This document shows, piece after piece, positions 22,472 through 27,219 of a stretch of DNA of 49,447 nucleotides. A program made the translations under genes and the position numbers. Each line of letters starts with the position of its first letter. The stretch's first letter is position 1. The stretch is from Flavobacteriales bacterium (GTDB lineage: Bacteria > Bacteroidota > Bacteroidia > Flavobacteriales > UBA7430): assembly GCA_002692065.1 (NCBI GenBank), contig NZJX01000012.1, positions 21,931 to 71,377 on the forward strand. Direction: 5' to 3'. The notes below the pieces were generated by a model. The model did not search any database and was not told where the DNA came from. It saw only the letters and a list, made by a program, of their open reading frames with translations.

Positions 22472-22714
22472 CTAATTTTTTCTAATTTTTTTTTGATGTT
22501 TATACCAGAAAAATACAAAAATTGAAATTAATATATATGGAAAAATCATAATATATAATATTCCAGCATTAAGCCCTGACCCTTCAGTAAAACCAGAATC
22601 TATATTAGATTCTGCCACTGCTTTACACATTGAGCATCCTTGTGAATATAATTTTTGAGTAATACAAATCATTATTAAAGTGATAGACGTATAAAGTTTG
22701 TTTGTATTTTTCAT
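22472..22714 (-). CDS. Small membrane protein with an exported CxxC motif
   Basis: 80 residues. A signal peptide or first helix (about 8-24) is followed by GCSMCKAVAESN with Cys27 and Cys30, an ILYIMIFPYILISIFVFFWY transmembrane helix (about 52-70) and a basic cytoplasmic tail (KHQKKIRKN). The CSMC pair would face the periplasm. It lies one base after the DUF420 gene and within the oxidase-assembly cluster with SCO, so a part in copper delivery or oxidase assembly is plausible but inferred only from position. Related small proteins sit in the same place in other flavobacteria; I know of no assigned function. Confidence 0.75.
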   Translation of the reverse strand: MKNTNKLYTSITLIMICITQKLYSQGCSMCKAVAESNIDSGFTEGSGLNAGILYIMIFPYILISIFVFFWYKHQKKIRKN

Positions 22715-22715
22715 A

Positions 22716-23225
22716 TCAAAAATTGTAGTATGGACTTATCATAATATAAACAATCACTCCTGTAAATGTTACATAAATCCATATTGGCATACTCCACTTG
22801 GTGATCTTTTTATGATTTTTAAAATCTCCAATGAAAGCTTTATGAAATGAGAATAATATTAAAGGAAGAACTATTGCAGCTAGTATTATATGAGAAATTA
22901 GAATAGTCAAATAAATATATCTTAATGGATTATCAATTGGAAAATGAGTTTTTATTCCAAAAGAATGAAAAGTAACATATGATAAGATAAAAATAGTTGA
23001 TAGAATAAAAGTTATAATATTTATTAATTTATGAGTATATATCTTTTGTTTTTTTATTGAAATTAACGAAATAACAAGAAGAATAAAACAAATAAAATTT
23101 ATGATTGCATTTAACTTGGGTAATATTTTTACAAAATTAGGAATCGTTTTAGATTGAGGTAAATTATTTAAAAAAATAACTAGGACCAATACTAAAAATG
23201 AAATTAAATAAATAATTTTTTTCAT
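22716..23225 (-). CDS. DUF420 membrane protein (CtaM/YozB-like oxidase assembly factor)
   Basis: 169 residues with a signal-anchor and four further hydrophobic segments (about 5-20, 38-58, 68-86, 107-127, 147-165). Conserved family features are the histidine positions in YVTFHSFGIKTHFP, ISHIILAAIVLPLI and the HKKITKWSMPIWIYVTFTGVIVY C-terminal helix (split here to its two halves HKKITKWSMP and IWIYVTFTGVIVY). DUF420 proteins accompany SCO and heme O synthase genes; CtaM of this group is required for aa3-type oxidase function in Firmicutes. It follows SCO by 5 bases, consistent with an oxidase assembly role. Confidence 0.87.
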   Translation of the reverse strand: MKKIIYLISFLVLVLVIFLNNLPQSKTIPNFVKILPKLNAIINFICFILLVISLISIKKQKIYTHKLINIITFILSTIFILSYVTFHSFGIKTHFPIDNPLRYIYLTILISHIILAAIVLPLILFSFHKAFIGDFKNHKKITKWSMPIWIYVTFTGVIVYIMISPYYNF

Positions 23226-23230
23226 AGATT

Positions 23231-23863
23231 TTATTCTTTAATTAATGTTTTTATATCAATAATTAATTGAGATACTTCCCTGTCATTTGTTCCATCATAT
23301 ACGCCTTTTACATTTCCATATTTGTCAAAACTTGAACGGATATTTCCATATTTGTCAACCAGAATAAAATATTCTGAATGAAGAAAGCCTCCAGGTGCAA
23401 ATTTATCTTCTTTTACACTAATGAAATAACCACTTTTAGCAATCGAATATATATTTTCTTTTTTTCCTGTAAGAAAAAACCAATTAGATTTAGCGTTTAT
23501 TTTTGTTGCATAATCATTAAGCATTTCAACATTATCATATTCTGGGTTAACCGTATATGAAATTAGATTTATTTTATTTACATCAAAATATTTTTGAATT
23601 TTAACCATGTTGTTATTCATTTTAGGGCAAATTGATGGACAGGTTGTGAAAAAAAAATTTACAACTGAAATTTTACCTAAAAAATCATCAGTAAAAACTT
23701 GGTTATTATATTGATCAACAAAAGGATAATTTGGGATTTTGTGAAATATGGTGTCTTTATTTACAATTTCTATTGGACCAACATAAGCAAGGTTTTTTGT
23801 ATTATCATTACAAGAAACTATTAATATAATTAATGATATTTTTATGAAGTTAAATATATTCAT
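23231..23863 (-). CDS. SCO1/SenC-family copper chaperone for cytochrome c oxidase
   Basis: 210-residue lipoprotein (lipobox ILIVSC, Cys18) with a thioredoxin fold. The copper ligands are all present: C75 and C79 in FFTTCPSICPKM, and His162 in GGFLHSEYFILVDKYG. By family knowledge SCO delivers copper or reduces the CuA site of oxidase subunit II. It overlaps the upstream SCO-like gene by 14 bases and is followed by DUF420. Its C-terminal part aligns with that upstream gene, indicating an old duplication. Confidence 0.95.
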   Translation of the reverse strand: MNIFNFIKISLIILIVSCNDNTKNLAYVGPIEIVNKDTIFHKIPNYPFVDQYNNQVFTDDFLGKISVVNFFFTTCPSICPKMNNNMVKIQKYFDVNKINLISYTVNPEYDNVEMLNDYATKINAKSNWFFLTGKKENIYSIAKSGYFISVKEDKFAPGGFLHSEYFILVDKYGNIRSSFDKYGNVKGVYDGTNDREVSQLIIDIKTLIKE

Positions 23864-24560
23864 TTTTTAATTTGAGTTCTCTTTGATACTCAGCTAGGAG
23901 TAGTTTTATATCTTCCAGTAGTAATTTTATTTCAAATTTACTTAATACATCATAGACATATATTATTTTATTTTTTTTATTAAATCCTGTTCTTATTCTT
24001 CCTTCTTTGTCGCATATAATAATTTTCCCTGAAAATGATTTTTTTTCAGCAATAACGTTTGAGATTTTACCTACCCATATGTTTTTTTGCATAAATTTTT
24101 CAAAACTATCTTTAGGAAGTTTAATGTCAAAGTATTTATCTATATTCGTGTTGTTTTTATTCGAATTTGAGGTACTATCAGATTCAATTTGAAAATTTAA
24201 GTAATAAATTGAATCATATTTATTTAATTTTGACCAAATCTCACTTTCAATCATGAAATTTATAAGATTATTTTTAAAAGTATCAGGTTCTGAGGTTGCA
24301 AAAATTAACTTAATATTTCCATTGAAATCAGAAAAATCTAATGAATCATTTACACTAAAGTTTTTTATAAAGTGGTATCTATTATAATCATTTCTTTTTT
24401 CATCAAGAAGTGGAATATAATTATCTGTTGAGTCAGATAATATTGGTAAATAAACAAAATTGTGTTTACCAGAGGTTAAATAAAGGTATAAAAATGAAGG
24501 TAAGAACAAAATTGAAAATAAAATCAACCATTTAGTTAAATTAATTTTTTTATTTTTCAT
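23850..24560 (-). CDS. SCO-like membrane-anchored protein without copper ligands
   Basis: 236 residues with an N-terminal membrane anchor (about 10-28, KWLILFSILFLPSFLYLYL) and a soluble domain. No CxxxC is present: the only cysteine is Cys183, and the SCO histidine is absent. The C-terminal stretch at 181-204 (IICDKEGRIRTGF, then KKNKIIYVYD) aligns with 167-190 of the neighbouring SCO (ILVDKYGNIRSSF, then DKYGNVKGVYD), 11 identities in 24 columns by eye, and FNGNIKLIFATSEPD sits where SCO has LGKISVVNFFFTTCP. This is a degenerate thioredoxin fold. It sits between subunit IV and SCO with a 14-base overlap into SCO. A scaffolding or SCO-partner role is inference. Confidence 0.75.
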   Translation of the reverse strand: MKNKKINLTKWLILFSILFLPSFLYLYLTSGKHNFVYLPILSDSTDNYIPLLDEKRNDYNRYHFIKNFSVNDSLDFSDFNGNIKLIFATSEPDTFKNNLINFMIESEIWSKLNKYDSIYYLNFQIESDSTSNSNKNNTNIDKYFDIKLPKDSFEKFMQKNIWVGKISNVIAEKKSFSGKIIICDKEGRIRTGFNKKNKIIYVYDVLSKFEIKLLLEDIKLLLAEYQRELKLKNEYI

Positions 24561-24562
24561 AG

Positions 24563-24847
24563 TTAAATTAGTTCACCAGCTTCAGTTAATAAAATAAATA
24601 ATAAATAAGGAATCAAAATAAACGCCGGGAATGCTAATGTAAATATGAAGTTTCTTCTTTCATGTTTCACATGCATGAAGTAAGCAATAATGTAGTAAGC
24701 TTTTACTAGCGTTAAAATTATAAAAGTCCACTTAAGAACTTGATAACTTACGGGTTTAAATATTCCAAGTCCAACTTCAATTCCAGTTAGAATTAAAAGA
24801 ATTAAAAAGACAATCCATATTTGCTTAGTTGAATGATTATTTTCCAT
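24563..24847 (-). CDS. Cytochrome c oxidase subunit IV family protein
   Basis: 94 residues with three transmembrane helices (about 10-27, 36-56, 69-90) and the short conserved connectors TGIEVGLGIFKP and YIIAYFMHVKHERRNF. It matches the prokaryotic subunit IV family, a small non-catalytic membrane subunit of heme-copper oxidases. It follows the second subunit III by 10 bases and precedes the SCO-like gene by 2. Confidence 0.92.
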   Translation of the reverse strand: MENNHSTKQIWIVFLILLILTGIEVGLGIFKPVSYQVLKWTFIILTLVKAYYIIAYFMHVKHERRNFIFTLAFPAFILIPYLLFILLTEAGELI

Positions 24848-24857
24848 TATGTTTTTT

Positions 24858-25682
24858 TTAAATTAAATAAAAGAAAGTGAATACGAATACCCAAACTAAA
24901 TCAACAAAATGCCAATAAAGTCCTACTTTTTCAACCATTTCGTAATGTCCTCTTCTTTCATATGTTCCAAAAAGAATATTTATAAAAATTATTATATTCA
25001 GAATAACACCAGAAAAAACGTGAAAACCATGAAAACCTGTAATGAAAAAAAAGAAATTAGCAAATTGAGGTAATCCGTATTCATTGACAATCATATTTGC
25101 ACCATAAATCTTTTTTGAGTTTTCTTTTAAATTTAGAATTAAATCTTTCTCAGTGATATATTTTTCAGCACCTATTCTTAATATTTCATAATCATAAGTT
25201 TTTCCCACGATTTTTTCCCCAGAGTTTATTACTTTAGCTACACTTCCGTCTGCAAGTTGGATTGATCCATCATGAGTTCCGTGAATAAAGTGCATCCACT
25301 CCCAAGCTTGAGATCCCAGAAATATTGCTCCACCAATTATAGTCAAAAACATCCATACTGCAACTTTATTTTTATTCATTAATTTTCCATGATGAACTGC
25401 TAGGACCATAGTAACTGAGCTCATAATAAGTATAAATGTCATTAGTGCAACATAGAGTAAAGGTTGATCTCCTTTTATACCAGGGAAATGGGTAAATACG
25501 TGTTCTGCAAGAGGCCATGATTCAGAGTATTTAAATCTACAAAAGCCATATGCGCCTAAAAAACCTGAAAAAGTAAGTGCATCTGTAAGTAGGAAAAACC
25601 ACATCATCATTTTACCATAACTAGCATCAAAAGGTTTTGCCCCTCCTCCCCATACGTTATTTTCTTTTGAAATTGTCGACAT
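24858..25682 (-). CDS. Cytochrome c oxidase subunit III
   Basis: 274 residues. Helices carry the subunit III signatures KMMMWFFLLTDALTFSGFLG, SQAWEWMHFIHGTHDGS, TGFHGFHVFSGVIL and VGLYWHFVDLVWVFVFTFFY. Between the third and fourth helices lies a soluble insert of about 60 residues (roughly 125-185), usual for Bacteroidota but absent in proteobacterial subunit III. It is the second of two adjacent subunit III genes. The 53-base gap upstream contains a good -7 box (25707-25714), so it may be transcribed separately as well as by read-through. Subunits I and II are not in the window. Confidence 0.95.
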   Translation of the reverse strand: MSTISKENNVWGGGAKPFDASYGKMMMWFFLLTDALTFSGFLGAYGFCRFKYSESWPLAEHVFTHFPGIKGDQPLLYVALMTFILIMSSVTMVLAVHHGKLMNKNKVAVWMFLTIIGGAIFLGSQAWEWMHFIHGTHDGSIQLADGSVAKVINSGEKIVGKTYDYEILRIGAEKYITEKDLILNLKENSKKIYGANMIVNEYGLPQFANFFFFITGFHGFHVFSGVILNIIIFINILFGTYERRGHYEMVEKVGLYWHFVDLVWVFVFTFFYLI

Positions 25683-25735: not shown

Positions 25736-26302
25736 TTAAACAACTAATAAAAAAACAAATAAAAATATCCACAATACATCAAGAAAATGCCAAAAAGTTA
25801 CACCTAATTCTAAACCTAATATATTATTTGAACTATATCGCTTATTTCTTGAATTAAGATACATGATAAATATTGTAACTAAACCTGCAACAATATGCAA
25901 TAAATGCATTAGTGTTATTGCATATACAAATGATCCAGACGCATGACTTCCATTACCAGTAAAATAAATCCCCATGTCATACATTTCTCTCCAACCTAAA
26001 AATTGAAAAAAACTAAACATTAGTCCAAGAATTAAAGTGAAAAATAAATAATTACTAATGGAAGAAAAATTATTTAATTTTGCATTTAAGATAGCTTTAT
26101 GAATTGTAAAACTACTTAACAAAATTATTAAGGTACTCAATGAAAAATAAAATGGTAAATCAAATTCAAACCAATTACCTTCACCTTTTCTGACTATATA
26201 ACCAGATGTAAAACTCGCAAAAAACATTGCCATACTGACCATTGATATGTAAAGTAAGGGTTTTCTAGTTTTAAATTTTATATTTTTGTCATCTTCGTTC
26301 AT
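25736..26302 (-). CDS. Heme-copper oxidase subunit III (short paralogue)
   Basis: 188 residues with five predicted helices. ISMVSMAMFFASFTSGYIVR, FLGWREMYDMGIYFTG, ASGSFVYAITLMHLLHIVAG and LELGVTFWHFLDVLWIFLF are subunit III signatures, but it is shorter than the neighbouring copy and lacks its insert. Tandem subunit III genes of unequal size between ctaB and subunit IV are a regular flavobacterial arrangement; the split may give two copies per complex or serve different oxidases. Its start overlaps the ctaB stop by 4 bases. Confidence 0.92.
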   Translation of the reverse strand: MNEDDKNIKFKTRKPLLYISMVSMAMFFASFTSGYIVRKGEGNWFEFDLPFYFSLSTLIILLSSFTIHKAILNAKLNNFSSISNYLFFTLILGLMFSFFQFLGWREMYDMGIYFTGNGSHASGSFVYAITLMHLLHIVAGLVTIFIMYLNSRNKRYSSNNILGLELGVTFWHFLDVLWIFLFVFLLVV

Positions 26303-27219
26303 AGTATTAGATATTTGTCAATTAAATAAATTATTTGAATTGTTGGTAGATAAATTAAACTTCCAATCATTAGTTTTTTTGCCGAAATGAAGTCGCAATT
26401 TTTGAGTAAATTATAAGCCTGAAAATACATATAAAGACCAGTTGCAAAAATAAATAAAGCTCCAAATATGCTCAAATTTAACTCACTCCTTATTCCTATA
26501 TATGGAAAGATGAATGGAATTATTGAAACTGGAATTAACCAAATTGTATATAACAATGCGTGGAATGCTGAGTTCTCATCTTTCATTTTAGACGGTAACA
26601 TATTTATTCCTGCTTTTTTATAATCCTCATCTAATATCCATGCAATAGACCAAAAATGAGGAAATTGCCATAAAAATTGTATCGCAAATAATGTTAGTGC
26701 TTCAATGCTAAATTCATTAGAGTAAGCAATCCATCCTATCATAAATGGAGAGGCACCTGGGAGAGCTCCTACAAAAACTGCAATTGGACTAATTTTTTTA
26801 AGAGGTGTATATATCATAACATAAATGATCAACGCAATTAAACCAAAAATTGCACATTTAAAGTTTAAATTATAAAGTATTAATATTCCAAATAATCCTA
26901 ATATGCTTGAAAAAACTAATCCTTCTATTTTTTCTAATCTACCAGATGGAATTGGTCTTTTTTGAGTGCGACTCATTAGTTTATCAGTTTTTTTTTCAAA
27001 AACTTGATTGAAACCGTTGGAGGAAGCTACAACAAAAAAACCACCGAGAAATAACATTAAAAAATTCAACCAATTAAATACTTCACAAGCTAAAAGATAT
27101 CCAACTAGAGACGAAAAAACCACTGTAGCGGAGAGTCTAAATTTTGCTAATTGAGAATAATCTTTAATTTTATTTTTCAAATTCTTAGATTGTGTATGCA
27201 AAAATAAGTAATTGATCAA
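26299..27219 (-). CDS. ctaB: Heme O synthase (protoheme IX farnesyltransferase)
   Basis: 306-residue UbiA-superfamily membrane enzyme that transfers farnesyl to protoheme, giving heme O for the oxidases. Helices alternate with the substrate motif NGFNQVFEKKTDKLMSRTQ followed by KRPIPSGR, typical of CtaB/CyoE, and IGWIAYSN, FLWQFPHFWSIAWI and EDYKKAGINMLP in the second half. The first Asp of the usual Asp-rich box is Glu, as in other Bacteroidota. It lies 15 bases after the DUF389 gene and overlaps the oxidase subunit gene by 4. Confidence 0.96.
   Translation of the reverse strand: MINYLFLHTQSKNLKNKIKDYSQLAKFRLSATVVFSSLVGYLLACEVFNWLNFLMLFLGGFFVVASSNGFNQVFEKKTDKLMSRTQKRPIPSGRLEKIEGLVFSSILGLFGILILYNLNFKCAIFGLIALIIYVMIYTPLKKISPIAVFVGALPGASPFMIGWIAYSNEFSIEALTLFAIQFLWQFPHFWSIAWILDEDYKKAGINMLPSKMKDENSAFHALLYTIWLIPVSIIPFIFPYIGIRSELNLSIFGALFIFATGLYMYFQAYNLLKNCDFISAKKLMIGSLIYLPTIQIIYLIDKYLIL

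Follow-up and report, generated by a model that had tools for sequence, protein, structure and literature searches.

Proteins of the SCO family (SCO1/SenC, PF02630; BsSco, 1xzo, and the B. anthracis protein 4hde are solved members) are commonly regarded as copper and thiol proteins, and in humans both SCO1 and SCO2 retain the copper ligands. A ligand-free member is known from plants—HCC2, an SCO homologue in which all three copper ligands are missing, that acts in UV-B tolerance and whose knock-out causes no significant drop in COX activity (PMC3971200), with a normal SCO, HCC1, kept beside it. This plant case was the only one returned by our search of the open-access literature for ligand-free SCO proteins in bacteria. 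An account of SCO genomics by Banci et al. from 2007 (cited in PMC9145763) may mention motif-less bacterial forms. Among proteins encoded near bacterial SCO genes, B. subtilis CtaM (DUF420) is required for functional oxidases and has been proposed to export copper, which Sco would then bind (PMC13344008).

Here we describe a protein, hereafter X, encoded in a window of 49,447 nucleotides (the whole stretch of DNA analysed) from a Flavobacteriales bacterium. Among named genomes, the closest to it are marine Flavobacteriales genomes reconstructed from metagenomes and a single-cell genome that carries the label Cryomorphaceae (AG-903-K14). X and the SCO encoded next to it show the same state as the plant pair—one protein without ligands, one with them—whereas in the human pair the ligands are present in both proteins. 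The likeness to HCC2, which is mitochondrial and not operon-linked, is one of ligand state and does not imply orthology; because the ligands were also lost independently within the Bacteroidota (see below), convergence is the likely explanation.

The oxidase operon of the window

X is encoded on the minus strand within an oxidase operon that runs from a UbiA-family prenyltransferase (26299–27219; PF01040, E 1.3e-54; haem O synthase, CyoE/CtaB, is a name given by context) through two COX3-family proteins (25736–26302, PF00510, E 1.6e-12; and subunit III proper, 24858–25682, PF00510, E 9e-14) and subunit IV (COX4_pro, 24563–24847; PF03626, E 2.7e-15) to X itself (23850–24560, 236 aa). The next gene encodes an SCO of 210 aa (23231–23863; PF02630, E 3.2e-25), a predicted lipoprotein (lipobox IVSC, C18), and the two reading frames overlap by 14 bases (23850–23863). 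The original prediction had this overlap and the coordinates and strand of X right. Downstream lies a DUF420 (CtaM-like) gene (22716–23225; PF04238, E 5e-37), whose product is a membrane protein unrelated to X and serves here as context only. The cassette closes with an 80-aa membrane protein (22472–22714) that has no Pfam match, carries a CSMC or CAMC motif behind a signal sequence and is conserved in this closing position in nearly all relatives; it is possibly a copper-binding assembly protein.

Subunit II of the window genome contains the CuA motif CNKVCGGAHYNM; there is thus a CuA site to load, which should require an SCO to deliver the copper. Elsewhere in the same genome, away from the oxidase operon, lies a gene for another SCO that has all ligands (contig C16, L123:3565–4236).

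Homology, fold and missing copper ligands

The original prediction had taken X for an SCO paralogue lacking copper ligands, on the strength of a C-terminal resemblance to a neighbour that it considered a normal SCO, and had named an unrelated predicted fold as grounds for giving this up. BLASTP between the two proteins aligned the C-terminal part with 18 of 44 positions identical (E 1e-6 for the pair), and profile–profile comparison with hhalign extended the similarity further: the X family matched partner SCOs at E 2.1e-12, and a profile of ten X proteins matched a profile of ten operon SCOs (single-copy, membrane-anchored) from relatives over the full length at E 1.6e-32. Judged by these profiles, X is closer to the membrane-anchored operon SCO of relatives than to the SCO next door. 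When the X profile was run against PDB chains with hmmsearch, in search of a known oxidase subunit, the only match was an SCO, 4hde (E 6.5e-5); subunit III of the window oxidase likewise found no close oxidase structure in the PDB. AlphaFold, given X rows only, predicted a thioredoxin fold, with pLDDT 71 from 10 rows rising to 80.7 (pTM 0.75) from 32 rows. Foldseek against the PDB ranked BsSco (1xzo) first for the 10-row model, and for the 32-row model its three best hits were a Bacteroides disulfide isomerase, ResA and BsSco, with 4hde also matched. Taken as profile and fold evidence, these results confirm X as a real SCO homologue that shares with the family its thioredoxin fold, membrane anchor, place in the oxidase operon and full-length profile similarity. 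It differs from the family in lacking the CxxxC motif and the ligand histidine and in being missed by the Pfam model—no Pfam or NCBIfam model recognises X and its 31 relatives as a family, and a direct PF02630 scan fails. The matches of X to ATPase_2, SPC25, Rotavirus_VP1 and hyd_TM1266 fell below cut-off and are attributed to chance.

To count ligands, we used one alignment of 109 proteins (32 X, 31 partner SCOs, 31 single-copy operon SCOs and 15 other SCOs). All three ligands, two cysteines and a histidine, are absent from every X protein (32/32) and present in every partner (31/31), single-copy operon (31/31) and other SCO (15/15). In the window SCO they correspond to C75 and C79, the invariant CxxxC, here CPSIC (minus strand, 23627–23641), and to the invariant H162 of GGFLH (minus strand, 23378–23380), which bears out its description as normal. 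The place of CxxxC is taken in X by residues 90–94, SEPDT (minus strand, 24279–24293), by profile–profile alignment, with cysteine in 0 of 32 X proteins in these columns, and the distal histidine is replaced, mostly by glycine or serine. The single cysteine of the window protein, C183, occupies a site unrelated to CxxxC and is not conserved (the 93%-identical orthologue L002 has no cysteine at all), and its only histidines, H33 and H63, both precede the domain, so the original prediction's reading of one misplaced cysteine and no matching histidine stands.

What X keeps lies elsewhere. The fold residues D170 and R176 (window SCO numbering) are retained throughout the 109-protein alignment, including all 32 X. 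Across the 32 X only P21, D184 and R190 are invariant, and L14, L38, D217, E224, Y225 and K230 are nearly so; these positions fall in the membrane helix, the last hairpin and the C-terminal helix. The first of these elements is a predicted N-terminal transmembrane anchor (residues 4–29, minus strand, 24474–24551; model helix 3–29) with the invariant P21, common to single-copy operon SCOs; the last is a helix of residues 208–235 (minus strand, 23856–23939; the same span in the model) with LLAEY and a basic tail, which the neighbouring SCO does not have.

Distribution of X and repeated ligand loss

Families and genera are referred to below by codes (f1, f3, f17, g101 and so on). Family f3 of the order Flavobacteriales encodes X in all 40 sampled genomes, and X also occurs in families f11, f13, f14 and part of f1, so the pairing with SCO extends well outside the window genome; the original prediction would have fallen had the pair been confined to that genome. 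In every X locus seen, X directly follows cox4 inside the oxidase operon, and among the loci read it was found only with that operon; the order cox4–X–SCO–DUF420, with cox3 before cox4, holds in nearly all of them, and a ligand-bearing SCO (CxxxC) follows X in 31 of 31 loci uncut by a contig end. Against the 93%-identical orthologue, dN/dS is 0.135 for X, 0.182 for the partner SCO and 0.097 for DUF420, in keeping with the earlier view that X is retained rather than decaying. Two other layouts were also seen. One locus (L102:2311–3903, genome G195) has the order ligand-free SCO, small cysteine protein, ligand-bearing SCO; no X branch in the trees is longer than that of its ligand-free protein, which may have lost its ligands separately. 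In family f35 (L115 and L116) the small cysteine protein stands between cox4 and SCO, and the stretch gave no match to DUF420.

Families f7, f8, f9, f12, f15 and part of f1 instead have one operon SCO with all ligands, and this single protein unites features that X and its partner divide. The C-terminal AEY motif with basic tail is present in 31/32 X and 26/31 single SCOs, and in 0/31 partner SCOs; an N-terminal LPxxY-type membrane motif is present in 24/32, 20/31 and 1/31, respectively. By this division, X has inherited the position of the membrane-anchored SCO and the chemistry falls to the partner, though the same split could also have come about simply because the partner lost its tail. 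In two trees the X proteins group as one clade (100/98 for all 21 X in one; 82/97 with 14 X in the other), but their branches are long, and attraction among them is possible. Trees placing X and its own partner in one clade, the outcome expected if the neighbouring SCO had been duplicated in tandem within one lineage, were rejected (p-AU 0.0003 and 0.0006), and the two copies are therefore old.

Ligand-free SCOs at the same operon position also occur outside the X clade, in other orders of the class: in family f17, in genus g101 of family f23, and in family f21. All 60 of 60 such loci, with or without ligands, have cox3, cox4 and DUF420 alongside. Sampling of g101 and f17 began with thirty loci chosen for their similarity to a ligand-free query, to which most others were then added. 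Of the operon SCOs from 61 g101 genomes, 23 have all ligands, 6 have the cysteines without the histidine, and at least one cysteine is missing from 32; the figures for 51 f17 loci (G614 included) are 32, 6 and 13. As proportions the f17 figures are approximate, since eight genomes of that family gave nothing beyond weak matches and are excluded. On a tree built without the ligand columns, six changes of cysteine state are needed, five of them forced by well-supported branches. The cysteines were thus lost independently at the same operon position, with at least five to six changes on one tree, and the resulting genes are under purifying selection (dN/dS 0.06–0.16). Operon SCOs that keep CxxxC and have lost the ligand histidine (L211, L213, L216, L228, L233, L234, L276 and L280–L282) are apparent intermediates toward the ligand-free state.

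In these other orders, each ligand-free genome examined has another SCO match, adjacent or elsewhere, except G689 (82% complete), and five of five unlinked second SCOs checked by sequence carry CxxxC. The ligand-free protein is often without a neighbouring partner there, the second SCO being often unlinked, and tight pairing is not general outside Flavobacteriales. Seven f17 genomes with only one SCO kept the ligands in every case (7/7), which is weak evidence because these genomes are related to each other.

Possible roles of X in oxidase assembly

Since the same loss has occurred several times in related bacteria, with the gene left intact in the same operon, X seems to do a copper-free job. 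We consider it about an even prospect that X is a pseudo-SCO that contributes to oxidase assembly without copper, likely by docking the ligand-bearing partner. This role is our inference; what the analysis shows is homology, predicted fold, ligand loss, selection, linkage, feature split and repeated independent loss. Docking was one of the roles that the original prediction had offered, beside heterodimer partner and regulator. X would have given up copper binding while retaining those elements of the operon SCO by which it is held at the membrane and at the oxidase (the transmembrane helix, the juxtamembrane stretch, the last beta hairpin and the basic C-terminal helix), while copper and thiol chemistry would be done by the ligand-bearing SCO from the next, overlapping gene. 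Most likely X would then sit at the maturing oxidase and either position the partner SCO or hold subunit II open during CuA loading; on the simplest reading, it would be a membrane-held scaffold that contacts the partner or the oxidase and brings the partner SCO to subunit II.

A permanent place on the mature enzyme, with X as an accessory subunit either of the aa3 oxidase itself or of the supercomplex that this forms with alternative complex III, contributing a membrane-anchored periplasmic domain, is a rather unlikely alternative. It would account for the constant position directly after cox4 and for a membrane-anchored protein that needs no cofactor; however, the genes that follow, SCO and DUF420, encode assembly factors, X itself derives from one, and no PDB chain beats 4hde as a match to X, a comparison in which subunit III also lacks a close oxidase structure. 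Quite unlikely, too, is that X has left the oxidase for a part in sensing or in the response to redox, copper or light stress, along the lines proposed for plant HCC2, which lacks the same ligands and serves UV-B tolerance rather than COX activity—X stays strictly with the oxidase operon in the loci read and has no conserved cysteine, methionine or histidine able to sense. We regard as more doubtful again a true SCO/pseudo-SCO heterodimer that tunes the partner's copper transfer or redox state without contact with the oxidase: the genes are adjacent and overlapping, and a ligand-bearing SCO is always near X in Flavobacteriales, but in other orders ligand-free SCOs often have no neighbouring partner.

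Binding of another cofactor or metal through new residues is very improbable, for although H33, in the juxtamembrane stretch GKHNF, recurs in many X, none of the invariant residues across the 32 proteins is a histidine, cysteine or methionine. Least credible of all is that X is a duplicate in the course of decay and loss. Fast evolution and long tree branches would fit this, but X is intact in 32 loci at dN/dS 0.05–0.15 and present in all sampled genomes of one family, which contradicts pseudogene decay, and ligand-free versions have been kept independently in other orders.

Returning to the docking role, a broader form of it, to which we give somewhat less than an even chance, is that the oxidase-operon SCO of Bacteroidota serves a core function, docking or structural, for which copper is not needed, and that this is what selection preserves. 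Copper binding would then become dispensable once a second SCO takes it over, so that pseudo-SCOs would have arisen again and again, one of them occurring throughout the sampled genomes of a large family of Flavobacteriales. In any case, a protein without a Pfam or NCBIfam family gains a concrete identity, as a core protein of a large bacterial group and an SCO without copper ligands. Together with the repeated, independent loss of ligands at one operon position, it would separate a scaffolding role of SCO from the copper role, and it offers natural mutants in which the former can be tested.
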